Part shown: positions 9,801 through 57,795 of the stretch, in pieces
Layout: each line of letters opens with the position of its first letter
Numbering within the stretch: the first letter of the stretch is position 1
Source: Luteolibacter sp. Y139
Lineage (GTDB): Bacteria; Verrucomicrobiota; Verrucomicrobiia; Verrucomicrobiales; Akkermansiaceae
Assembly (NCBI RefSeq): GCF_038066715.1
Contig: NZ_JBBUKT010000008.1
Location: 248,001 to 312,000, forward strand
Reading direction: 5' to 3'
Length of the DNA stretch: 64,000 bases
Position numbers and translations under genes: made by a program
Notes under the pieces: generated by a model
Seen by the model: the letters and a program-made list of their open reading frames with translations, nothing else
Databases searched by the model: none
Told to the model about the DNA's origin: nothing

Positions 9801-12800
9801 GTCCCGCGCAGCGTCTGCGTGAACAGGATCGTCTCCTGCTCCGGCGTCGGCGCTTCCAGTTCCCAGCGCTGCTTGAGTTCAGCCGCGATCCGCTCCCGCA
9901 CCTCCGGCATCGCCTGCGAAAGCAGCGCCTTCTCCGCCGCATTCAGACGCTGCCACGCATAGGGCCGCAGGTGCTTGGAAAGATCCCGCCCGAGCAGGAT
10001 GTCATCGATCACCGTCGGCTCGCGTTTCTCGGCCAGCATCGGCTTCACATACTTGGTGAAGAAGTCCGGATCCTTCCTCGCAAGGAACAGATGCAGCTCA
10101 TGGCAAGCATGCTCGGAAAGGAAGGCCAGCTTCCGCTTCTCATCCAGCGATGGCCAGTCGAGCAGCGGCAGGAAGTCATTCAGCCGCGCATCGCCCGTCG
10201 CGCCTACCAGGAATTGATGCGCCTCCGCCAGCGTCGTGAACGCCCGCCAGTCGGCATCGATCACGCTCTCGATGCTCGCCTCCGCACCCTTCGCCAAGGC
10301 CGCCGCGCGTCGCGTCCCCACATGATACTTCTGCGCATCCAGCGGCCGCGAAAGCCGGCGATCCCGCAGCGGCGTGTCCGTCGCCTTCAGCGGCACCACC
10401 AGATGATGCCGTCCCGCCGGATCAGCCGCCACGATGTCGACCACTTGGCAATTCGAGAAATCCGCCGCAGGCACCTGCACCATCCCATTCGCACCCACTT
10501 CCAGGTCATATCGCAGCACCGAAGGAGCCGCGAGGAAGTCGATGCTCGGCCCGCCATCTTCGCCGGTCTTTCGCGACTCGGGAGCGGGAGGCGCAGGCTT
10601 GAAACTCCGTCCACCCGCGCCGCTTCCCGTCCCGCGGCCTCCGCCCCCGGACTTTGGATCTTGGCGCGTCTGCGTGAGATCGTCCTCGCTCCAGCGATTC
10701 ACCAGCAGTCCGGGACGCGGCAACATCGAACCGGGGAAAGTCTTCGCCGCACGTCGATCGAGGATGTAGCGCATCTCATCCCCGAGCCGGCTTTCTTCTT
10801 GAAACGCCAGACCCGTGAAGCCCGGCTGCAACGCATTCGGCATCGGCGGAGTGAAAGGCTGCAGCGCCTCGCCCGAATCCCACGAGTGCAGGAAGCGGCT
10901 GCCCAGCAGTGAGACCCGCGTGCCCGGCGTCGCACCTTCGATTCGCACCACCAGTGAGCCCGCCTCTTCCGTTGCCGCCGCGATGAAAGGCAGCGAGGGT
11001 AAGGAGCGCGGCAGCAAGCGGGTAGGGGACACCAGCAGCCCATCGCGATCCACTCCGCCCGAGACCCGCACGGCGATCGCGTGGCCATCTAGCCGGAGCG
11101 CGTAGTCACCAGCCGCCAGCCCGCGGGCCACCAGTCGGCGATTCTCCACTGCCAGCTTGTCGAAATGATCGCGGAGGATGACGCCCTCGCGCTTCTCTAA
11201 CAAACTCACCCGCGCATGCTCCGGTGCCGCCATGAAGCGCACCAGCGGCAGCCGGATTTCATCGCGAGTGGACAGCTGGATCTCCTCCGGCAGGTCCATC
11301 CATCCGCCATCCTCATCCGGGAAATAACCGGCCGGAGCGATGTCCGGACCGGTCACGCGGACTTCGGCGATATCGGCCAGCTTGCCAAGCGCCACCCGGC
11401 CCCGGTCATCGCTGCGCAGCGCCAGCTTGATCGTTTCGAGATGATTCCGGTGCTTGAACTCGAAATTGAGCGGCCGCGAGGCCAGCGGCTCACCATTCCG
11501 CCCGCGCAGCTCCACGCGATGGCCGTCCGTATCCCGCGTGAAGAAAGCAGCAGCAATGCGCCCCGTGCCGAGGATCCCGTTCATCGCATAGCTGTGCTCG
11601 GCCGTCAGCGGAATCGGGTCCGCTCCGTCGCGCGGCGTGACCGTGCCGGTCAGCCGCAGCTTCAGCGATGTCGCATCCGCCGGCACCTGGAAGGGCACGA
11701 ACATCTTCGGCGTGAGCTTCAGGTCCCCACCGATCACCCGCTCGGTGGTGATGCCGCCATTCAAGGTCGCGATCAAAGTCAGCGATGGTTTCTCGATCCA
11801 CTCCAGCGGCAACTCATAGCCATGGCTGGTCAATTGCAGCCGCACGAAAAGATTCGCCTGCTGGTCGGCGAGCAGTTGCTCGCGATCCAGGTGAAAGCGC
11901 GCCTGAAGTGCGATGTGTTCGCGTCGCGGTTCCAGATCCAGCGGCACCGCGAGCTTGCCACGACGGACCAATCCACTGTCCCGAGCATCATCCGTGCGAT
12001 CGGGAATCAGGATCCGGCCGTCCGCGCCCGCGGTGAAGGTCTCGCTCCCCAGCGAAATCGTCGCGTCCTTGAGCAGCGCCCCGTCTTCATTGAAGACCCG
12101 CACGCTTTGTCCCCGCGCCTGTCGCTCGACGTAGGGAATGAGCCGGCCCTTTCTAACAAGCGCCCGCGATGACACCCCGCGAGACACGCATTCCACGATC
12201 CACGCGCCCGGACCGGCCAACTCCGGCAGATCTAGTAGTTCCCGATGAACCACCAGCGGCGGCTGTTGGAAAGTGATCCGCTTCTCGTGGTGCGGCACCA
12301 GCCCCTCCAGATCCAGATCCACCGGCGGCTCCTTGCCTTCACGCTCCATCCACGCCGGCAGATCCAGCTCGAAGATCCGCACCAGCAGCTCCGGCGTGTA
12401 TTTCAGATCCAGCGGCAGCTTCACCGCGGCATCCGCTGGCAGCGTGATCGGCTGACCGGGTGCGAAGGAAATGCGCGTCTCCTTCTGCAAGGACTGCACC
12501 TCCGCCGGATCCAGCTCTGCACCCCAGCGCACCGGATCCGCCCCGGCCAGCAGCTTGGCGCGTGCCTGCAAGCGACGCAGCACCTTCTGCTCGATCAGAT
12601 CCTTGAAGGCATCCGGCGTATCGGCAGTCGCCAGGAAGTGCTGGAGGTAGGCCTCGATCAACTCGAGGTCGTCGCCGATCGGCGGACAGGCCGTGGCGGC
12701 TTCGTAGTCGTGGCTCGCATCGATGCGCGGATTGGCCACGAAGTTCTCCGTGACCTTCAGCAGGGGATGGCTCGCCCGCGGCAGCTTCAGATACGCGAGG

Positions 12801-16842: not shown

Positions 16843-16917
16843 TCCGGCGTAGCTCAGCGGTAGAGCGGGTGGCTGTTAACCACTAGGTCGTAGGTTCGAT
16901 CCCTACCGCCGGAGCCA
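16843..16917 (+). tRNA. tRNA-Asn (GTT), prophage integration site
   Basis: All four arms fold: acceptor TCCGGCG/CGCCGGA, D stem GCTC/GAGC, anticodon stem GGTGG/CCACT with loop CTGTTAA (anticodon GTT), T stem GTAGG/CCTAC. CCA is encoded. The 3' part (16895-16917) is duplicated at the far end of the prophage, so integration keeps the tRNA intact. Confidence 0.97.
16895..16917. repeat. attL
   Basis: 23 bases covering the T-loop side, the acceptor 3' strand and CCA of tRNA-Asn. They match 57773-57795 exactly. With one mismatch the match extends five bases further left (GTAG shared). Confidence 0.93.
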
Positions 16918-20714: not shown

Positions 20715-22319
20715 TCAGGCCGGGGGCAGGATCGAATCAACCCGAGACTCATCCAGCTTACTTCGGCGCCTGAGCTTAGAAAGTATTCCCCGCATCAAGC
20801 TGATTGCTTCTGCGGCTGCCTGATCTTGCGAAAAGCGACGTATGAACTCTTTCAGGATGTATTGGACATCCGAATCGCTTGTCTTGATCCACTCCTCTAT
20901 TTCGCGGCTGCTAAAGTTGGCCAAGAACTTCAGCTCACTGGGATTCCAACTATTGCTACCCGCAAGTCTCTTAAGAAGCTCATCAAGCGTGAAATCCGGA
21001 ATTGTAGCCTCCATCTTCTCGGTTGCTTTGACCCGCACCGACTCAGGAAGCCGGCTCATTGTTAAATCGAACCAACGACCATGTGTCATTGCAGCCACGA
21101 AACGATTTAGTGAGGCTTCAAATGATATCGACACATCCTTCGGAATCCTGACCTTAAGCTGTTTCAGGAAATCGACCACCGTCGCGAATTCTGCTACCGA
21201 CACGTCAGATCCATGCTCCCGCAGGAATTGAATCTGCTGTTCAACGAATTCGCGGTGGGATGTCGTGAAATTTGTGTAGTAGCGAGCCCAAATCTGGCGA
21301 TGTATTGCGGTAATGTTACCCACTCGGTTTGCCTCGTTGCGGCTGGTTAATAGCTCATCCCAGTCGGCGAGCTTCGCGAATCCGTGGATCAAATAGTCAA
21401 CAATGACCTCGTCCTCTTCTGCTGGGTAGAACTCCAATTTTTTCAGAAACTCAAGATCCGGCTTTTCGCGTTCATCCTTGTCCAAAAAGAGCGAATAATA
21501 GTTGGACTTAAGCACCTCCTCTATGGATACCACAGATGAGAACGCGTGATGGACGATTGTAAGTATTACGCATTTTTCTAAAAAGGAATGAAGAATGAAT
21601 GGATATTTTTCTGATATGTCCTTTTCGAAATACTCGATAGCCCACGCTACGCGCTGCATCACTCTTATATTATTCAATTTCAGCCGGTGGAACGCCGCGC
21701 TAACGGATTCTGGAATGCCGCTTTGCCAGATGATTCGCAAATTGTCCGAAATTGACGGGGAGTAGGTTATCTCAAGATCAACGACCTTCTCGCGGTACTC
21801 GTCGAATGCCTTGGCTGCATCAGCGGAGAGCTTGTCGTCGTTGAGAATCAGCACGACTTTGCAGCCCCGATCCTGTGTCAGGAGTGAAATCATCCCCAGG
21901 ACGCTGGAGGTCGAGACGCTTTCCTCTTTCCTCTCCAAGTCGTCGATGCACACCAGGAAATTGTTGATCAAATGGCTCTCGACGACCTTGTTAGCGATGC
22001 CAACCAAGTTCACGTGGGGGGTCTGAAAATATCCGGCATATTTCAGTATAGGACCAAGCTTTTCCAGATGCTTCTTCGGAGACTGCTCATCGACAATCTT
22101 GAAATTGGAGGAGATCTGACTTGTGAGTGCCTCTATAGAAGTGGCACCAAAAAGCGACGCATAGGCGTAAGCAGTGAATTTTAGGCCGGACAGTCGGTTG
22201 GAGAGGAAACTGCGCCAGAAAAAAGTTTTCCCCACACCCCACTCGCCTTTGATCACGGCTACGCGGAGCGAATCATTGCTGAGGAAGTTCTCGAGACTTC
22301 GTTCAAGGGGGGAGATCAT
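20715..22319 (-). CDS. KAP-type P-loop NTPase, cargo between TerL and portal
   Basis: 534 residues. The Walker A loop GEWGVGKT lies at residues 25-32 and the Walker B strand FLVCIDDLER at 121-130. KVVLILNDDKL follows as a sensor-like strand. This is the order seen in KAP-family NTPases and the NTPase subunits of several defence systems. A long helical C-terminal half (residues ~200-534) shows no known motif and no membrane helix. The gene is opposite to the packaging operon and clearly richer in A/T than its neighbours, so it is probably recently acquired. An immunity or superinfection-exclusion role is inferred, not shown. Confidence 0.7.
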   Translation of the reverse strand: MISPLERSLENFLSNDSLRVAVIKGEWGVGKTFFWRSFLSNRLSGLKFTAYAYASLFGATSIEALTSQISSNFKIVDEQSPKKHLEKLGPILKYAGYFQTPHVNLVGIANKVVESHLINNFLVCIDDLERKEESVSTSSVLGMISLLTQDRGCKVVLILNDDKLSADAAKAFDEYREKVVDLEITYSPSISDNLRIIWQSGIPESVSAAFHRLKLNNIRVMQRVAWAIEYFEKDISEKYPFILHSFLEKCVILTIVHHAFSSVVSIEEVLKSNYYSLFLDKDEREKPDLEFLKKLEFYPAEEDEVIVDYLIHGFAKLADWDELLTSRNEANRVGNITAIHRQIWARYYTNFTTSHREFVEQQIQFLREHGSDVSVAEFATVVDFLKQLKVRIPKDVSISFEASLNRFVAAMTHGRWFDLTMSRLPESVRVKATEKMEATIPDFTLDELLKRLAGSNSWNPSELKFLANFSSREIEEWIKTSDSDVQYILKEFIRRFSQDQAAAEAISLMRGILSKLRRRSKLDESRVDSILPPA

Positions 22320-22358: not shown

Positions 22359-22372
22359 GTGAACGGGGCGAA
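22359..22372 (+). promoter_or_regulatory. AACGGGGCGA element upstream of portal
   Basis: GTGAACGGGGCGAA. The same core occurs before the capsid gene (25152-25165), before the tail tube gene (30087-30100) and in the duplication scar (29124-29137). A shared late-gene control site or RNA element is possible. Confidence 0.4.
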
Positions 22373-27776: not shown

Positions 27777-28178
27777 ATGATCAATGACCTGCTGACGTGG
27801 TTCGTGGCGGCCGTGAAACAGGAGCCGACGCTGGCGGCGTTGCAGGCCCGGGTGTTTCCGGACGTGGCGCCAGAGCAGACTCCCAATCCGTGCATGATCT
27901 ATCAGTTCATCGAAAACGAGGGCGAGCCGGTGCTGGATGCCGGGGCGGCAACCCACGGCACCCTCGCGTTCCAGGTGAGGATCTACGGTGACTCCCGGCG
28001 CGAAGCGAATGCCTTCCGGGAATCGATCCGGCTAAAGTTCCAAGGGATGACGCCGCAGGCGATTGGCGGCGGGTGGAAGATCGAGGGCAGTGCCTGGGGC
28101 GACCTGCCCGATACCTACGAGAAGGAGACGAAGGACTACGGTGCACTCGGCGTGGTGGAATTCCATGTTGCCCGGTAG
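27777..28178 (+). CDS. Tail terminator/completion protein (DUF3168-like)
   Basis: 133 residues from ATG 27777. The pattern INDLLTWFVAAVKQEPTLAAL..VFPDVAPEQTPNPCMIYQFI..., THGTLAFQVRIYGDSRREANAFRESIRL and a final Y.DYGALGVVEFHVAR matches DUF3168 tail completion proteins (lambda gpU-like). A decayed copy of its 3' third lies at 29226-29390. The tail tube gene should follow but is displaced by ~2 kb of cargo. Confidence 0.85.
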   Translation: MINDLLTWFVAAVKQEPTLAALQARVFPDVAPEQTPNPCMIYQFIENEGEPVLDAGAATHGTLAFQVRIYGDSRREANAFRESIRLKFQGMTPQAIGGGWKIEGSAWGDLPDTYEKETKDYGALGVVEFHVAR

Positions 28179-28192
28179 CCCAGGACTCCGTG

Positions 28193-28948
28193 TTAGCAGC
28201 GCTGGCGCTTGCGGCGAAGGAAAAGGGCGAGGATGCCGGCGCTGAGGAGAGCGGATGATGGCTCGGGGATGAGGACGAACTGGGACTGGAAGCCATTGGG
28301 CGCGCTGCCATATGCCCCTGGCATCCCGTTAGCGAGGATGTCCATCTGAATCGAAGAGTTCGTGGGATAGTCGGTGAGATCCAGCACACCATTAGTGGTA
28401 AACCGAACGGTGAAGTTTTGAGACTGGGTAGTCGTCTTAGATTCGCCTTCAGAAAAGACCGTCATCGAATAGGTCATGAGCCCTTGCATGGTCCCAATGT
28501 CGCCGGGGCCGAAACGATAGGTCTTGCCGGTCCACGTGAGGGCACGGTCTCCGGAGTCGAAAGTTGCCGCGGACAGATCTAGGGTGACGGTCACTGTCGA
28601 GTAGCCATCGGCGAAATGCGGCTGGGGGCCCTGGGGAAACTGCGGTGCGTAGTCGTTCACTCGCTGATTCGTGACGCCGGTGGTGTATGAAATCGTGGCC
28701 GAGGATCCACCCATGGAACCGGAAAGCCGTGCGGTCAGATGGTCGGGATCGATTTCCAAGGTGGTGGTAAGCTGCGCCTTAGGTAGCTGCACGTAGGCCG
28801 ACTGGCCGCCGGTTTCGGGATGGGAAATCTGGAGGTAGGCTGGAGTCATGTAGGCGAGTTCCGAGGTGATGTAGGTCTGCACCGCATGGGACGGCACCAC
28901 GGCGAGCAGTTGGGCAACAGTAGCGAGAAGGATGGCTTTGATTTTCAT
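28193..28948 (-). CDS. PEP-CTERM sorted exported protein carried by the prophage
   Basis: 251 residues from ATG 28948, where MKIKAILLATVAQLLAVVPSHA gives a signal peptide. The body is beta-rich with many Thr/Ser. The C-terminus is a textbook PEP-CTERM tripartite signal: IPEPS, a hydrophobic helix (SALLSAGILALFL), then RRKRQRC. Such proteins are cut and anchored by a host exosortase. The gene is opposite to the tail operon and not part of any virion module, so it is lysogenic cargo, probably altering the host surface. Confidence 0.85.
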   Translation of the reverse strand: MKIKAILLATVAQLLAVVPSHAVQTYITSELAYMTPAYLQISHPETGGQSAYVQLPKAQLTTTLEIDPDHLTARLSGSMGGSSATISYTTGVTNQRVNDYAPQFPQGPQPHFADGYSTVTVTLDLSAATFDSGDRALTWTGKTYRFGPGDIGTMQGLMTYSMTVFSEGESKTTTQSQNFTVRFTTNGVLDLTDYPTNSSIQMDILANGMPGAYGSAPNGFQSQFVLIPEPSSALLSAGILALFLRRKRQRC

Positions 28949-29086
28949 AGTTGAGGGGTTGTTGTGCCAGGTAGGCGGCGGACATGATGGCACTAACCGA
29001 GAAGTGGATGGCAAGGCCGGGTGGAGGCGTGACCGCGGATGGCGCGGATACCGTTGATCTTTGAGGAATGAGGGCGGCGAAGTAAC

Positions 29087-29112
29087 GTGGACAGAATGTC
29101 CACGCTCCTTAA
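29087..29112. repeat. REP-like hairpin, copy 1 (CTCCTTA type)
   Basis: A perfect 7-bp stem (GTGGACA, loop GAA, TGTCCAC) followed by GCTCCTTAA. Related copies are at 31181-31204 and 35328-35352. Confidence 0.65.
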
Positions 29113-29125
29113 TGGCTTTGCCGGT

Positions 29126-29390
29126 AAACGGGGCGAGCAAGGTTGCCGCCCTTCCCGTTACCTTGTTCCGGAGCTGGATGCTCCAAGCCGTGAAAGGCGA
29201 CTGCACGAGACTTCAGCGACCAAACGGCACACCACGGCATGCTCGCCTTCCAAGGAAGGATCTACAGTGACTCTCGGCGCGAAGCGAATACGCAGAGGAA
29301 GTCGTCAGGTACATGTCCCAAGGAATGACGCCGCGGGCTATCGGCGGCGCGTGGAGGATCGAGGTCGGTGCCTATGGCGAGCTGCGATTT
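29126..29390 (+). pseudogene. Chimeric scar: tail tube 5' end joined to tail completion 3' part
   Basis: 29126-29231 matches the leader and first codons of the tail tube gene (30088-30196, sharing GTGAAAGGC.ACTGCACGA). 29226-29390 matches 27946-28110 of the tail completion gene (sharing for example CGGCGCGAAGCGAAT and GGAATGACGCCGCGGGC with few changes). The joint falls at a shared ACGGCAC. The frame is broken by small deletions and substitutions. This is what a tandem duplication of the segment 'completion 3' end - cargo - tube 5' end' would leave. Confidence 0.75.
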
Positions 29391-29456
29391 GGAGGTCTCT
29401 TCTGCGGCTAGGGAAAGATTGACGGAGTGGAAAGGTTCTCCTTCGCTGGGAGGCGC

Positions 29457-30041
29457 ATGAAATCCCTCCTAAGCACCCCGCTCCTGACCTTGACGCTCGG
29501 GTCTCTGTCTGCTCCGGCGCAAGGCGCTGTGATCATGGCCTCGACTTATTGGACGAGCCTAGCGGACGGACCCTATTATGGGACGACGCAGCCATTCCTT
29601 TCCGCGGGCACTCGCCCAGCGGCCGAGACCTCGATGTCAGGCTACGAAGGTCCGTCCGGCGGCCAGGTGACGATTGATCTTAACATGGGCGAGACGGTGA
29701 TCAGCGCAAAGATGATCGCCAGTGCCGTGACCATCACCGGCACGGTCTTTGCGCCCGTAGAGTGGAATATGGTTCTTTATGGGAACTACCCGGCGGCCGG
29801 GTATCAGGCAGGGGATCAGGTGTGGTATACCCAACAGCAGCATTGGGCCGGGTTCTTCACCCAAATGGACTGGAAGTCGGAGATCATGATGTACTTCGAG
29901 GTGGTAACCAATCAGGGAACCTTTGTGGATGACAACGGTGGAACTGGTTACCTGATTCACTATGGAAGCATCCCAGAGGGATCGACGGTTACGCTTGGGC
30001 TCTTCGGGCTGGCGATGGCAGCGAGACGTCGCAGATGGTGA
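29457..30041 (+). CDS. Second exported protein with degenerate PEP-CTERM signal
   Basis: 194 residues from ATG 29457 (MKSLLSTPLLTLTLGSLSAPAQGA, signal peptide). The body is rich in Tyr, Trp and Gly with no known domain. The C-terminus reads IPEGS, a short hydrophobic run (TVTLGLFGLAMAA) and RRRRW. This is a PEP-CTERM signal in which PEP has become PEG, so sorting by exosortase may be weakened. It is on the tail strand but not a virion gene type. It is not obviously related to the other PEP-CTERM gene 0.5 kb upstream. Confidence 0.7.
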   Translation: MKSLLSTPLLTLTLGSLSAPAQGAVIMASTYWTSLADGPYYGTTQPFLSAGTRPAAETSMSGYEGPSGGQVTIDLNMGETVISAKMIASAVTITGTVFAPVEWNMVLYGNYPAAGYQAGDQVWYTQQQHWAGFFTQMDWKSEIMMYFEVVTNQGTFVDDNGGTGYLIHYGSIPEGSTVTLGLFGLAMAARRRRW

Positions 30042-30141
30042 AAAGGTGCGCCCGGAAAACCGGAAACGGCGAGTGCGGATCACGTTGCGAACGGGGCGAA
30101 CAAGCAGCCGCCGCCCTCCCCAGCGCCTCGGTGACTCGCCG

Positions 30142-31017
30142 ATGGTGCGAGGCGTGAAAGGCAACTGCACGACTCTCCAGCGTTACAACGGCACCGGTTG
30201 GGACACGATTTCCAAGCGGGTATCCATCACCGGTCCCAGTCGCTCCCGCGAGACGGTCGAGCAAGAGCTCACTTTGGACTGTGATGCCTCCGGCGGCAGC
30301 TCCACGAAAAAGAAGAGTCCGGGGACCAAGGAAATCGGCGACATCTCGGTAGAGGTGCTGTGGAATCCGAACACGCCTTCCGGGACCAAGCAGGTCAACA
30401 CGGCGACCGGCGCCGGCACGGTGACGGTGGCGGGCAATGCCTCGTTTACGGTGACCGATCCGGCGCTGGCCGGATCACCGAAGGCTTACGCGGTGCCGGT
30501 GCCGACGGGCGCGCCTGCGGTGTGGATGGCTGCCGCTCGCTTGTGGTTCCAAACGAATGCCGCCGCCGCGGACTTGCGTGCGCTCTACGACATCTCCGGA
30601 GCCACCGACAAGCTGATCCTCACCGCGAGCGATTCGCGAGCAGATGTGCCGACCTTGAACGTGGCGATTGCGACGGGGTCGGCGACCGGGATTACGACAG
30701 CGGCGACCTCGGCGGACACGACCGCCGGTGTGGCCGGGTTTGACAACGATGAGAACCATCACCTGTTCGAGGATGACTACGACGCCGAGGTGGCAACCTT
30801 CTGGAGAATCGTCCATGAGAATGCGGCAGGCACCGGGATGCTGGTGCACGCAACCGTGAAGGAAATTGGCGAGCCGAGCCACGAGCCGAACAAGGACGTG
30901 AAGGTAACCTTCACCTTGGAACCTACCGGCGAGTTCTTCAAGAAGGCCAACGACATCGAGAGCTACGTCTTGCCGGCCTCGATCACCGCTCCGCAGAACA
31001 ACTGGGGCCACAACTGA
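30142..31017 (+). CDS. Tail tube protein
   Basis: 291 residues from ATG 30142. The order (completion protein, then this, then chaperones with a frameshift) and the composition (many Thr, Ala, Asp; beta-rich; VKGNCTTLQRYNGTGWDTISKRVSITGPSRSRETVEQELTLD) fit a siphovirus major tail tube protein. KVTFTLEPTGEFF near the end is a typical last strand. A middle insert with DISGATDKLILTAS may be a surface Ig-like decoration. The gene's leader and first codons are duplicated in the scar 0.9 kb upstream. Confidence 0.8.
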   Translation: MVRGVKGNCTTLQRYNGTGWDTISKRVSITGPSRSRETVEQELTLDCDASGGSSTKKKSPGTKEIGDISVEVLWNPNTPSGTKQVNTATGAGTVTVAGNASFTVTDPALAGSPKAYAVPVPTGAPAVWMAAARLWFQTNAAAADLRALYDISGATDKLILTASDSRADVPTLNVAIATGSATGITTAATSADTTAGVAGFDNDENHHLFEDDYDAEVATFWRIVHENAAGTGMLVHATVKEIGEPSHEPNKDVKVTFTLEPTGEFFKKANDIESYVLPASITAPQNNWGHN

Positions 31018-31030
31018 TCATCCTCTCCCT

Positions 31031-31104
31031 CGCGGGGTAGAGCAGGCAGGTAGCTCGCTAGGCTCATAACCTAGAGGTCATCGGTTCAAATCCGATCCCC
31101 GCCA
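31031..31104 (+). tRNA. tRNA-fMet (CAT), initiator type, in the prophage
   Basis: 74 bases fold fully: acceptor with positions 1 and 72 unpaired (C and C), D stem GAGC/GCTC with the A11-T24 pair, anticodon stem CTAGG/CCTAG with loop CTCATAA, T stem ATCGG/CCGAT with loop TTCAAAT. The 1:72 mismatch and A11-T24 are marks of bacterial initiator tRNA. Of the three G-C pairs usual at 29-31:39-41, the outermost is A-T here. CCA is not encoded. It lies 14 bases after the tail tube stop. Confidence 0.85.
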
Positions 31105-31180
31105 CTCTTTCAAAGCTTCAATCATCAGTCCTCCAATCACCAATCGAAGTGTGAGGGGGAATGATGGCCAACCGTCCAAG

Positions 31181-35327: not shown

Positions 35328-35352
35328 GTCGAATGAAAGTCGACACTCCTTA
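35328..35352. repeat. REP-like hairpin, copy 3 (CTCCTTA type)
   Basis: GTCG, 9 bases, CGAC, then ACTCCTTA. It overlaps the last codon region of the tail-tip gene, next to the membrane cargo gene. Confidence 0.5.
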
Positions 35353-45241: not shown

Positions 45242-45874
45242 TCAGGGCGCTTCGTTCTTAGCGGCGTGCTCGATTTGACCAGCCTTAATCATCGTCATAG
45301 CGAAGTGATACACGTTGAACACGAACGATTTGAGCTGCATCATCACAAATGCCCAGAACATCACTGACATGATGAACGTAGCTTGCACCAGCTTCATGCG
45401 CACATCTTCACTCACCTCGAAGATCGTCGCCCACGATTGAAAAACCCCCTCCTTTTTGCCAAAAGCGATAATGCAAAGTTGGAACATCGCAAACGCGAGG
45501 AAATAGATAAAAACTCTAACGATCGTGAAAAAGTTATACTTCAGGTAAATTAGTTGGGTCTTTTTGTGGCGCTTACGAAGCATTAGTTGAAGTAGGGAGG
45601 GACTTGCGCTCGCAGCGAAGATCGTGAAGCCGGCAATTAAGAAGCCTAGGAGACTGACCGCCGAATTGAATCCTAGATTTGCGAGGTCCTGAATGGCTTC
45701 CAAGATTTTCTCCCCATTTTGTATGAACGCGAATCCGCCTGCCACCACCCCCGCCAGTACCGCAACGATCCAATTGAAAATCGAATCAGGAATTCCTAGC
45801 GATGCGAGGTAGATTTGCCAGAGGTTCTTCTCGGCAAGAACGTCGTCTGGATTCTTTGAGCGAGCAAACTTCAT
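45242..45874 (-). CDS. Four-helix membrane protein, RexB-like position
   Basis: 210 residues with four membrane segments at about 31-51, 70-90, 113-138 and 163-190, separated by a basic loop (LRKRHKKTQ). It is translationally coupled to the upstream soluble gene (ATGA overlap at 45871-45874). A soluble protein followed by a 4-TM protein in a prophage is the arrangement of lambda rexA-rexB, where RexB is thought to form an ion channel that depolarises the cell on superinfection. RexB is shorter (144 residues), and no sequence match can be claimed. Function inferred from context. Confidence 0.5.
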   Translation of the reverse strand: MKFARSKNPDDVLAEKNLWQIYLASLGIPDSIFNWIVAVLAGVVAGGFAFIQNGEKILEAIQDLANLGFNSAVSLLGFLIAGFTIFAASASPSLLQLMLRKRHKKTQLIYLKYNFFTIVRVFIYFLAFAMFQLCIIAFGKKEGVFQSWATIFEVSEDVRMKLVQATFIMSVMFWAFVMMQLKSFVFNVYHFAMTMIKAGQIEHAAKNEAP

Positions 45875-46863
45875 AGGCCGTAGGAGTCTTTGATCATCCT
45901 AACCTTCTCCTTCACTTTGTCGATGACGTCCGGGACAATAATCGAGGCGGTTTTCTTAAGTCGTTTAAATGCTCCGTATAGCTCTAGCGCGGCACTTTCT
46001 AGATCCTCGGAGAGCTCCGGGATCGAATGCTTCAGCTTTAGGCTGTCTTCATCGCCCTTCATTTCGGACCCCCCAAAGTCGACTCCGTTTAGTTGAAGAT
46101 CGTGATTTCCCTGCTTGGCAAGAGCTGCCACCTGCTTTGTCGCCTCGTCCTTATTCAAGCCTTCTTTGTTCTCATAACGGAGAGTCGTTTTCGTGCTTTT
46201 AAGGAGATCCTGGGATGTCCGAACTTGGTCGAACAGTCCATCGTTATCAAATTCGCTATTCGTTTTCTTGAGGGTCGTTGTGATGGACTTTAACCGAGCA
46301 AACTTTTTGATGAAATCTTCGACTGATCCTTCGTTGGCAATAGGGGTGATGCTGATACTTGGATACGGATATTTTTCGACTAACTGCTTCTTCTGCATTC
46401 GGCCGATACCCGGGTGCTCAATTTTGGACTGAAAGTCGATGAACGCCTTGTGCTTCAACTTCAGAAACTTCGCCAGCGTGGCTTGGAACGTCCCGACACT
46501 CGGCGAACCTGTGTTCTCCCTGACGTAAATGAGCCGGTGCGACCCCACCACAAGCAGGAAGAGGGAGGAAGGGGAGGAATGCAGAGTATCCTCAGTGGGG
46601 CGGAGTTCGTTCTCAATCAACTGCTGCTCTGAGGCGATGACCTCATCTTTCACCAATCGTCCCACCACCCCCAAGTCGTCTTTCAAATTCACAAGCCTTG
46701 GCTCGTGAAGCAGATAATGGGTGCCGGTGAAGCTCCGACGCAGGGTGTCATCAGTGAGGGCGGGCGCTACCACCTCCTCGAAAAGGTCAACAAGGTTCAA
46801 ATGATCTCCAAACTTAACTACGAAATTGGCTACTTCCAAGTATAGGGACTTAGTTTTAGGCAT
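45871..46863 (-). CDS. RexA-like soluble exclusion protein candidate
   Basis: 330 residues from ATG 46863; an earlier in-frame start at 46914 is less likely. From memory of lambda RexA, the segment order agrees: a G-[ST]-x-YL-x-H strand (TGTHYLLHEP), a charged helical stretch, then SPSSLFLLVVGSHRLIYVRENTG..SVGTFQATLAKFL against RexA SFLFVEGDTIGFART..TSDLTDFL. Then comes ITPIANEGSVEDFIKKF, a Thr/Lys-rich strand region, and a C-terminal helix. RexA is a DNA-binding sensor that triggers RexB. The gene is A/T-rich compared with its neighbours, coupled to a 4-TM partner and not part of any virion module. Confidence 0.45.
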   Translation of the reverse strand: MPKTKSLYLEVANFVVKFGDHLNLVDLFEEVVAPALTDDTLRRSFTGTHYLLHEPRLVNLKDDLGVVGRLVKDEVIASEQQLIENELRPTEDTLHSSPSSLFLLVVGSHRLIYVRENTGSPSVGTFQATLAKFLKLKHKAFIDFQSKIEHPGIGRMQKKQLVEKYPYPSISITPIANEGSVEDFIKKFARLKSITTTLKKTNSEFDNDGLFDQVRTSQDLLKSTKTTLRYENKEGLNKDEATKQVAALAKQGNHDLQLNGVDFGGSEMKGDEDSLKLKHSIPELSEDLESAALELYGAFKRLKKTASIIVPDVIDKVKEKVRMIKDSYGL

Positions 46864-47009
46864 GGGAAGGATTAGGCTTACCCTTCGCGAAATAGCTGAA
46901 TCGACCCATAGCACCAGATTTATCTACGTATCCCATTTTTCCCACGTCGAAAATCCCTGTTTGCTCTGCCTACCGATCTCTCAACCTCGAGGGTGTTCGC
47001 CTCGATCCC

Positions 47010-55563: not shown

Positions 55564-56367
55564 ATGGATCGCGAAAGGAAGAACAATGCAATCTCCGTGC
55601 GTTTGGAGCCTCAGCTTCGAGAGCGCGCGGCGGCCGTCGAGAAAGCAACCGGGATCAACACCGCGGACCTAATAAGACAATCCCTGGAGGCAGTAATACG
55701 CTCGTTCGAGCTGAACGGGAAAATCGATTTCCCCATCTATGTAGTCGGCTCCGAAGGTATGCTCTCCGCTGTTGCCCAAACTTTCGTTGAAAAGGAGGGC
55801 GAAAAGATGCGGGGACGCATCGAAGAATTGCTTTACGCAAGGATGGAAGAGGAGTGGCGGAAACACACGGGACTCTTCCCTCCAAAGGAAGGCGATGGGG
55901 GTAATTATGTCATCGAGGTAGACGACTGGGTTTCCGCGGGCGGACCTGAGAAGGAGGATCGGATCAGCATTGACTGCATCGTCACTGAGAAAAACTACCC
56001 CGAGAACTACCGCGCTTTCCAAGTGTCTGGACAGTCGATGTATCCGGAGATCGTAGATTCCGAGGTCGTAATTGTTCGGCCAAATCACGAGATGGCTGAT
56101 CCTGTATCGGGATCGCGGGTGATTTTCCGAGATGACGCCGGTAGACTATCGCTTCATCAGTTTATCATCGACGCGAACGGCGTCCGGTCATTGAGGCCGT
56201 ATAATCCGGTATTTCCCGAGATCAAGCCCATCGCTGCCGGGCTCATTGATGCAGTTGTTGTCGACGTGCTCCCGTTGCCCGAAGGGCAGAAGGTTATGAC
56301 GGAAGCTGAATTCCGAGCAATACACGGCTGGCCACCAGGTCACCCTGACGCTCCTAAGCCCACTTGA
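55564..56367 (+). CDS. Phage repressor: RHH domain fused to an S24 peptidase domain
   Basis: 267 residues from ATG 55564. Residues 1-50 (NAISVRLEPQLRERAAAVEKATGINTADLIRQSLEAVI) read as ribbon-helix-helix, not the usual helix-turn-helix of CI/LexA. The C-terminal domain is S24-like: an Ala-Gly at 125-126 where LexA and CI are cut, and VSGQSMYP with Ser158. The expected catalytic Lys is replaced: the LxLKxF-like position reads SLHQF (His198). Self-cleavage, and so induction by RecA, may be lost or altered. It faces the small RHH gene across the operator repeats. Confidence 0.75.
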   Translation: MDRERKNNAISVRLEPQLRERAAAVEKATGINTADLIRQSLEAVIRSFELNGKIDFPIYVVGSEGMLSAVAQTFVEKEGEKMRGRIEELLYARMEEEWRKHTGLFPPKEGDGGNYVIEVDDWVSAGGPEKEDRISIDCIVTEKNYPENYRAFQVSGQSMYPEIVDSEVVIVRPNHEMADPVSGSRVIFRDDAGRLSLHQFIIDANGVRSLRPYNPVFPEIKPIAAGLIDAVVVDVLPLPEGQKVMTEAEFRAIHGWPPGHPDAPKPT

Positions 56368-56447
56368 TGCTACGAAGGGGCGCGTTCGTCTCCCAGTCAA
56401 GGTTTCCACTACGAGACTGCGCTTGGTATCTATCACTCCAATCATCC

Positions 56448-57713
56448 ATGCCCGCATCCCCTCGCAAAGCTTTCAAAGTGCGCCGAGGTAACTCACACCT
56501 CACGTGCTACCCGTGGACGCATCCGACCACCCGCAAGGAGCTATGGCGTTACGCGTGGCGCGAGTCGGTCGGCAAGCCGTGGCGCTACGTGACCGAGGCC
56601 ACGAAGGCCAACATCGAGGCAAGCGCCCACGAGAAGCTCGAACAACTTGAAGCCGGCGGGCTGGTCTGGAGTGGCCTTGCTGGCGACGAGCAGAGGTTCC
56701 TCGAAGCGGTTCACCGGCAAACGACACCCGCGGATTGGCCGGCGGTGCTCGACTTCCTAAAGGCCCGGAAGCGCAGCTCCGACATCGTAGGCGCCGTCGC
56801 CCGCTTCATGGACTGGAAGACCGAAGCCGCCGGTGAAGAGACCCCGCACCTTGCCCGCGTTCGGGGAGTACTGGAGGAGATGTCCACCGCCTTCACCGGC
56901 CGGGATGTCGCCGAGATCCACGCGCCCGATCTGCTTGAGTGGTGGCGTGGGCGAGGGGAGGGGAAGAGCCCGAAGCGCCGGAAGGACATCCGCAGCGCCC
57001 TAGTGACCTTTTGGTCTTGGGCGCGCCGCGAGGGCATCGCCGGTGCCGATCCGATTACTCCGGCCGAGCGCATCCCATCGGTGCAGGTGGATCATGGCGA
57101 GCGTCGCGTCCTGACGATCGACGAGATGGAGAGGCTCTTCGCCGCCGTGGACCCGAAGTTCCGCGTCTGGGCGGTGCTGGGCGCGTTCGCCGGTCTCCGG
57201 CCCGAAGAGATCGCCCCGCCGACCAAGGGCTCCAGCAAGAAGAAGCGGAAGCGCGGGCTGCACATCGAAGAAATCGACTGGACCTTCGGCGTGATCCGGG
57301 TGCCTGCCGTTGTCTCAAAGGTGAACACGCCCCGCGTGGTGCCGTTCAACGATGCTCTGCGCGCCGGCCTCGCTTGGGCGAACATTGAGCCGGGAATGAC
57401 CGGCCCGGTCTGTCTGCTCAATCCCGTGGAGGAAGGGGAGACCATGCGGCTCGGGAAAGCGGTGTTCAAAACCGGCTGGCCCCAGGACGCGCTCCGGCAC
57501 TCCTACGGCAGTTACAGGAATGCGGTGGTTCGCTCGCTCCCGAAGGTGGCAGAAGAGATGGGAACGTCGGTGACAATGCTCAATCGCCACTACCACAATC
57601 CCAAGGCCGAAGAGGAGGGACACCAGTGGTTCGCACTGCGTCCAAAATGTTCCGATTTTGTTCCGATGAAACGGAGGTCTAAGGCTGTAAAACCGATCGA
57701 GGCCACCGGCTGA
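56448..57713 (+). CDS. int: Tyrosine-type site-specific integrase
   Basis: 421 residues from ATG 56448. The core-binding domain (residues ~100-200) is followed by the catalytic domain with LGAFAGLRPEEIAPPTK (first Arg), a Lys-rich beta hairpin, DALRHSYGSYRNA (H-x-x-R region, read as LRHSYGS) and MLNRHYHNPKA with the nucleophile Tyr. It inserts and excises the prophage at tRNA-Asn. It lies 60 bases from attR and starts just after the repressor, as in many lysogenic phages. Confidence 0.93.
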   Translation: MPASPRKAFKVRRGNSHLTCYPWTHPTTRKELWRYAWRESVGKPWRYVTEATKANIEASAHEKLEQLEAGGLVWSGLAGDEQRFLEAVHRQTTPADWPAVLDFLKARKRSSDIVGAVARFMDWKTEAAGEETPHLARVRGVLEEMSTAFTGRDVAEIHAPDLLEWWRGRGEGKSPKRRKDIRSALVTFWSWARREGIAGADPITPAERIPSVQVDHGERRVLTIDEMERLFAAVDPKFRVWAVLGAFAGLRPEEIAPPTKGSSKKKRKRGLHIEEIDWTFGVIRVPAVVSKVNTPRVVPFNDALRAGLAWANIEPGMTGPVCLLNPVEEGETMRLGKAVFKTGWPQDALRHSYGSYRNAVVRSLPKVAEEMGTSVTMLNRHYHNPKAEEEGHQWFALRPKCSDFVPMKRRSKAVKPIEATG

Positions 57714-57772
57714 CCCCTTGATTTAGCAAGGTTTTCTATGGATTCGACAATTCCAGCACATGCCTTTGTAGT

Positions 57773-57795
57773 TTCGATCCCTACCGCCGGAGCCA
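57773..57795. repeat. attR
   Basis: Exact 23-base copy of the tRNA-Asn 3' end including CCA. The remaining tRNA is absent here, so this is the bacterial side of the crossover. Confidence 0.93.

Follow-up and report, generated by a model that had tools for sequence, protein, structure and literature searches.

We describe here a prophage in which two unrelated cargo genes are stacked around a decayed fusion of the two tail genes that flank them. In the window (the whole 64,000-nt stretch of Luteolibacter sp. Y139 DNA that was analysed), the tail completion and tail tube genes are separated by 1975 nt, occupied in order by cargo gene 1 on the minus strand, a patchwork scar of ~260 nt and cargo gene 2 on the plus strand, after which the intact tube gene begins. 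The scar consists of the tube leader and tube 5′ end joined to the 3′ part of the completion gene. We consider it probable that this stack arose when two close relatives with different cargo underwent one staggered crossover guided by microhomology. The gain and pile-up of passenger genes in temperate phages are usually inferred from finished mosaics, and the decayed joint in this prophage preserves the order of events. The features on which the description relies are as follows.

16890 to 57795, no strand: whole prophage, sitting in the 3′ end of tRNA-Asn (28-nt repeat and integrase)
20715 to 22319, minus strand: KAP-type NTPase, cargo between terminase and portal (PF07693, 31.7 against a cut-off of 20; PADLOC candidate PDC-S49, E 9e-23)
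27777 to 28178, plus strand: intact tail completion/terminator gene (PF11367, 25.0 bits against a cut-off of 24.5; phrog_347 tail terminator; start taken from the sequence)
27946 to 28107, plus strand: part of the completion gene duplicated in the scar (repeat families D1 and D2; blastn E 6e-32)
28193 to 28948, minus strand: cargo gene 1, 251 aa, predicted secreted, with a PEP-CTERM-like tail (TIGR02595; hydrophobic N-terminus)
29086 to 29111, no strand: host-type palindromic repeat of 26 nt between cargo gene 1 and the scar, 14 nt before the scar
29126 to 29229, plus strand: left part of the scar, a decayed tube leader and tube codons 1-13 (repeats, blastn, shuffles)
29225 to 29385, plus strand: right part of the scar, a decayed piece of the completion gene (repeats, blastn, polarised differences, shuffles)
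29225 to 29229, plus strand: the joint, CGGCA, 5 bp common to the tube and completion genes
29457 to 30041, plus strand: cargo gene 2, 194 aa, possibly secreted, with a degenerate C-terminal anchor (open frame)
30089 to 30153, plus strand: tube leader with box GAACGGGGCGAA, covering 65 nt up to the start of the tube and marking the slot's right-hand border
30154 to 31017, plus strand: intact tail tube gene, named by position
31031 to 31105, plus strand: tRNA-Met (ARAGORN), in the gap between the tube and the next gene

The prophage belongs to a 7.1-Mb draft genome of 31 contigs (the window lies in contig C8) and is flanked by a 28-nt stretch of the 3′ end of tRNA-Asn, repeated at 16890-16917 and 57768-57795 (27/28 identical), with the integrase (56364-57713; phrog_1, E 7e-17) near its right end. 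Its head-tail genes run in the order terminase, portal, protease, head closure, capsid, adaptor, neck, completion, tube and one further gene on the plus strand. Some of these names come from family matches, while terminase, portal, protease and tube were named from their position and the order common to relatives, the terminase also from annotated matches. The tube gene matches no Pfam or PHROGs family; its relatives, 57-59% identical, stand at the equivalent position. Among 50,697 GenBank phage records it had zero matches at E 1e-5, and the terminase matched 2230 GenBank phage records, all at less than 60% identity (38.3% for the best among the matches listed).

The repeats of tail genes that the initial annotation had claimed in this gap are real. 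By blastn, scar positions 29225-29385 align with the completion gene at 27946-28107 (77.8% identity over 162 columns, E 6e-32) and positions 29127-29230 with the tube leader and 5′ end at 30090-30194 (70.8% over 106 columns, E 1.7e-7), so that identity is present between both pairs of intervals on which the claim turned (29126-29231 with 30088-30196, and 29226-29390 with 27946-28110). Repeats D1 and D2 (83 and 85% identical) tie the scar to the completion gene and repeats D3 and D10 (78 and 93% identical) tie it to the tube. The gap scores 140 against its own completion 3′ end and 50 against its own tube 5′ end, compared with top scores of 30 and 29, respectively, in 500 Markov shuffles. An assembly artefact or a chance similarity, for which the draft state of the genome in 31 contigs might speak, is hardly credible given that copies of the repeats diverge by 15-29%, well beyond what a collapse of identical repeats would leave, and that no shuffle reached either similarity score. 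The two parts of the scar overlap in CGGCA, which is found at 30189-30193 in the tube, 27946-27950 in the completion gene and 29225-29229 in the scar. This 5-bp overlap replaces the ACGGCAC microhomology first proposed for the joint, a motif that is only adjacent to it: ACGGCAC lies next to the joint in the completion gene (27955-27961), and the scar has ACGGCAC and then ACGGCAT 10 nt later. The fusion is out of frame, the frame from the old tube start stopping after 26 codons, and the final ~70 nt of the completion gene have no recognisable counterpart in the scar.

We propose that, in a family of temperate phages living in Akkermansiaceae-type bacteria, the gap between the completion and tube genes serves as a cargo (moron) slot, with cargo placed between the completion stop codon and the ~65-nt tube leader. 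Two closely related phages that shared a host cell and differed in cargo would have recombined out of register at the 5-bp CGGCA, phage A contributing the completion gene, cargo gene 1 and the tube 5′ end, and phage B the 3′ part of the completion gene, cargo gene 2 and the whole tube. The product would have had one working copy of each tail gene together with both cargo genes, and the out-of-frame fusion left between the cargo genes would have decayed afterwards. The order of the pieces, the single working copies of the tail genes and the overlap at the joint are all explained by such a staggered crossover, and the cargo genes would be unrelated because the crossover partner carried different cargo. 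The tandem duplication or unequal crossover suggested initially holds up in so far as it accounts for the order of the pieces, the event itself being reconstructed rather than observed directly.

The same gap was followed in related phages. Searches with the tube covered 189 genomes of the order at the protein level, and 384 genomes of the class and 260 of the family by alignment (E limit 1e-12), in overlapping samples; matches confined to tube residues 72-202, most of which lay in frames 278-2300 codons long, were not counted as tubes. Full-length tubes were found in five genomes (the phage's own, G064 with two, G100, G195 and G572), and G064 has a third copy, decayed and reduced to the 5′ end. 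As G064 holds several related copies, crossover partners can co-reside in one cell. A search with the completion gene gave matches in 4 of the 18 genomes covered from the genus, own included, and scans of IMG/VR contributed loci L034, L035 and L052-L054. Eight distinct loci with the gene order of the window were scored, L034 being counted once with its close relative L035, and L053 once with L052 and L054 (100% identical over long overlaps). Left out were L051, which shares a contig with L033 and has a rearranged gene order, and the distant L072, with a gap of 338 nt and no recognisable leader; L055, L056 and L057 also stand outside the count, L057 having been mapped only. Compared with the window, L051 (JAQGPE010000473.1) has inverted head-tail blocks whose breakpoints lie close to slot positions, which may be real or an assembly error of the MAG.

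That this gap is a slot for cargo is shown by relatives in which the flanking genes are adjacent, 65 nt apart, compared with 1975 nt in the window. Two of the eight loci have an empty slot (L034 and L071, each with 65 nt from completion stop to tube start), in two the gap measures 454 and 474 nt and shows no clear gene (L020 and L021), and four are filled with cargo that differs from one to the next (the window, L019, L022 and L053). The window and L019 hold two cargo genes each, as does L022, a decayed prophage; the slot of L053 has a protein with a hydrophobic start followed by at least two further genes, one for a glycine-rich collagen-like protein. No cargo gene occurs twice in the slots examined, L053 not included, and slot-against-slot blastn at E 0.01 matched only gaps between the tube and the next gene. 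The supposition that the partners had different cargo in the same slot is borne out to the extent that relatives carry other cargo or none; a relative with only one of the window's two cargo genes, the form that the initial annotation suggested looking for, was not found among the 189 genomes of the order or in IMG/VR scans with each cargo gene, which reach close relatives only. In the search queries used, cargo gene 2 starts at 29460 (its start codon, at 29457, lies outside) and the completion gene at 27780 rather than at the gene start, 27777. The decayed prophage L022 of G064 retains the completion gene, two cargo genes and ~48 tube codons at 11410-11826 and upstream, and could be the source of a cargo unit flanked by its two arms.

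The scar is closer to the completion gene of its own phage (76.6% identical) than to those of the five relatives compared (at most 64.6%), which suggests that the tail genes of the partner were close to those of this phage. That closeness would also fit a tandem duplication within one phage or a concatemer, one cargo copy having later been replaced by recombination in the flanking pieces. We rate this as unlikely. It requires one extra event; the cargo genes are on opposite strands, with an alignment confined to their C-terminal parts (BLASTP E 0.001 over 84 residues); and no cargo gene recurs in the slots examined, L053 not being among them. The staggered crossover between two phages is consequently the reading that we retain. 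Since its formation, the scar may have decayed as a non-gene under little or no coding constraint, because the changes on its side are distributed across all three codon positions: polarisation with four relatives assigns 23 of the 37 scar-gene differences to the scar (8/9/6 at codon positions 1/2/3) and 7 to the gene (1/2/4), leaving 7 ambiguous (0/2/5, leaning to third positions). The differences between relatives and the completion gene fall about half or more at third positions (10/10/24 for L019, 13/11/25 for L020, 15/11/30 for L021 and 13/9/23 for L022), and when the 23 scar-side changes were set against each of these four in turn, with ambiguous sites excluded, Fisher tests gave p values of 0.038, 0.073, 0.045 and 0.070. 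The pattern is suggestive rather than decisive, the 7 ambiguous changes weakening the case. Without polarisation, ungapped differences at positions 1/2/3 number 3/9/10 in the completion part of the scar and 2/2/4 in the tube part.

The cargo genes differ in both sequence and direction, as had been claimed, and the confinement of their alignment to the C-terminal part led us to reject a duplicated-then-diverged pair. Their description as two PEP-CTERM genes has divided support for cargo gene 1 (above the cut-off of 16 for NCBIfam TIGR02595, at 18.1, but under that of 20.7 for Pfam PF07589, at 17.1); it does not stand for cargo gene 2, which is below cut-off for both families, matches no Pfam family and reaches 14.8 for MYXO-CTERM, under the cut-off of 20 that defines this curated C-terminal sorting domain. 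Cargo gene 2 resembles a secreted protein by eye, with zero stretches over the hydropathy threshold. Because the host has an exosortase (PF09721, 163.5 bits against a cut-off of 25.7) and 16 PEP-CTERM places over cut-off, cargo gene 1 could be a substrate of the host surface-sorting system, and a role of the cargo genes at the cell surface is conceivable. Matches to cargo gene 1 were found in 10 of the 189 genomes of the order, own included; eight of the nine others are C-terminal only (from residue 143 or later), and G028 matches residues 67-251 (E 1.9e-4) with an internal stop. Cargo gene 2 has matches in five of the 189, own included, the four others running from residue 117 or 148 to 192. 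Predicted structures had mean pLDDT values of 35 and 40 and were unusable, and PADLOC gave zero matches for either gene. The GC content of the two cargo genes (0.586 and 0.582) differs by a small amount from that of the tail genes (0.645 and 0.626) and the window (0.615); cargo in other slots and in L019 has 0.47-0.52, and that of L022 has 0.553 and 0.581. Selection for the cargo genes is at most hinted at by simulations with substitutions and no indels: at 14.6% divergence, 5.2% and 6.9% of runs left the unconstrained cargo frames without a stop, against 13% at 10% divergence and 34-36% at 5%.

The origin of cargo gene 1 may be traced further. A palindrome of host type lies between it and the scar, which would point to a host chromosome of this bacterial group as the source of the cargo 1 block. 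Three places in the genome match 18 nt of the palindrome exactly, its own copy included; when as many as two mismatches are allowed, the 24-nt core has 10 places, own included, and the reversed control none. A sister pattern occurs at 86 places against 0 in the control; the sister-pattern and core lists share one place, and the copy beside cargo gene 1 is absent from the 86. Copies inside the prophage lie at 29088 near cargo gene 1, at ~31180 near tRNA-Met and at 35329 near a minus-strand gene of 261 aa, the first and last found by pattern and that at ~31180 by eye. The position of the palindrome would also suit a later insertion of cargo gene 1 from the host chromosome, beside a scar left by an older, separate duplication; this we regard as improbable, since the tube leader of the scar starts directly after the cargo 1 block, at the place that the right border of the slot takes in filled relatives. 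A site-specific, integron-like cassette array was considered and rejected: no direct repeat of at least 12 nt joins the left borders of the cargo, and the large repeats are pieces of tail genes.

A second candidate for a stack of two cargo genes around a tail-gene remnant is found in L019, where a piece resembling the C-terminus of the completion gene directly follows the first cargo gene, ends at its own stop and lies between the two cargo genes. The fragment aligns over 26 nt at 88%, with no tube part, and its score of 37 was not reached in 2000 shuffles (top score 29). Among the six non-empty slots, similarity to the completion 3′ end exceeds every shuffle in the window and in L019 and does not in L020, L021 or L022, where for L022 no scar was seen by this measure; the score of L053 is borderline, being reached by 27 of 500 shuffles. 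Similarity to the tube 5′ end exceeds every shuffle only in the window. A second phage with a similar layout makes stacking by faulty crossover both testable and countable.

At its right border the slot of the window ends in the tube leader, whose box has counterparts elsewhere. The 12-nt form, GAAYGGGSCGAA, is present in the window at 22361, 25154 and 30089, and also in L019, L020, L021, L022, L051 and L053. With at most one mismatch, nine phage stretches (307 kb with both strands counted) contain it 18 times, compared with 6-10 times in five simulations of like dinucleotide composition. Fourteen of these boxes precede the portal, capsid, tube or following gene by roughly 60-70 nt; of the remainder, one (in L053) precedes another start codon and three lie elsewhere. 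Before the tube, the box at this stringency is absent in L021, L053 and L034, and L071 has a weaker form. A looser 13-base box with two mismatches occurs 9 times in the window against 3.5 expected, a count reached by 3 of 100 shuffles and weak evidence by itself, so it is because of its fixed position that we make a case for the leader box, possibly a late promoter or leader.

Other gaps of the head-tail cluster are filled in a comparable way. Between terminase and portal lie the KAP NTPase in the window, a DUF4062 protein in L019, a NACHT protein in L021 (its Mrr-like part under its cut-off) and a DUF2971 protein in L054; between head closure and capsid, a 239-aa protein in L019, a SLATT-type 2TM protein in L021 (PADLOC E 4e-23, Pfam below cut-off) and an FG-GAP protein with a hydrophobic start in L054; and after the tube, tRNA-Met in the window and a 213-aa protein in L019. 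By family match the KAP (20715-22319), DUF4062 (L019, 6666-7736), NACHT (L021, 519-2942) and SLATT-type (L021, 5723-6280) genes appear defence-like, and the slots draw attention to putative genes of defence-like and surface type in bacteria that have been little studied. Proteins over the hydropathy threshold make up four of seven in the completion-tube slot, none of four between terminase and portal, two of three between head closure and capsid and none of one after the tube; the second cargo protein of L022 is lipoprotein-like by eye. When the other gaps of the window, L019, L020 and L021 were compared with core genes, blastn gave no scar-like match, only short chance-like ones. Tentatively, as a layout that we rate somewhat short of probable, the cluster would have at least four docking slots for cargo, each ending at a conserved leader with the box GAAYGGGSCGAA ~65 nt ahead of the next gene. 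Cargo would be swapped through recombination in the conserved flanking genes, rare out-of-register joints would stack it and leave dateable scars, and the leader would let even reversed cargo sit in the cluster without silencing the downstream gene.

Phage morons are extra genes between late genes, a notion that the abstract of PMC6469090 also sets out, and morons, hotspots and mosaic recombination are all known already. The present case resembles morons in that extra genes lie between genes that are adjacent in relatives, and differs in that two unrelated genes are stacked around a decayed fusion of the flanking genes. A promoter and terminator belonging to the cargo were not found, the cargo region having 1 promoter-like and 2 terminator-like sites against 0.9 and 2.5 in shuffles, by a sigma-70 consensus that may not suit the phylum. 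As far as the account in PMC9122126 goes, the antiviral hotspots of P2 and P4 are fixed loci between core genes with very variable content, for which exchange upon co-infection, with homologous recombination as a second step, has been suggested. The fixed, core-flanked locus with variable content is shared with the slots described here; however, the P2/P4 hotspots of that account lie by the cos site (others being named in other phages), whereas here several gaps fall inside the head-tail cluster, several of them end in a leader box, and some of the genes are defence-like by family match. The arrays of displaced Rhs tips, as portrayed in PMC2935791, are likewise built by recombination that stacks alternatives and leaves displaced remnants in the array, but these are C-terminal tips of one gene and not whole separate genes between two tail genes. 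Homeologous recombination between diverged phages feeds mosaicism in the description of PMC2327257, whereas the joint here is out of register at 5 bp and no Red- or RecT-type family match was found in the six early-region proteins scanned. The literature search found no publication combining unequal crossing over, tandem duplication and morons, and as far as it extends, the readable stacking scar, the second candidate and the leader-bordered slot layout are new.

Elsewhere in the window, two adjoining minus-strand genes at 45242-46914, of unassigned family, gave weak PADLOC matches only, and the tRNA-Met at 31031-31105 has one host locus that is 86% identical over 64 nt.
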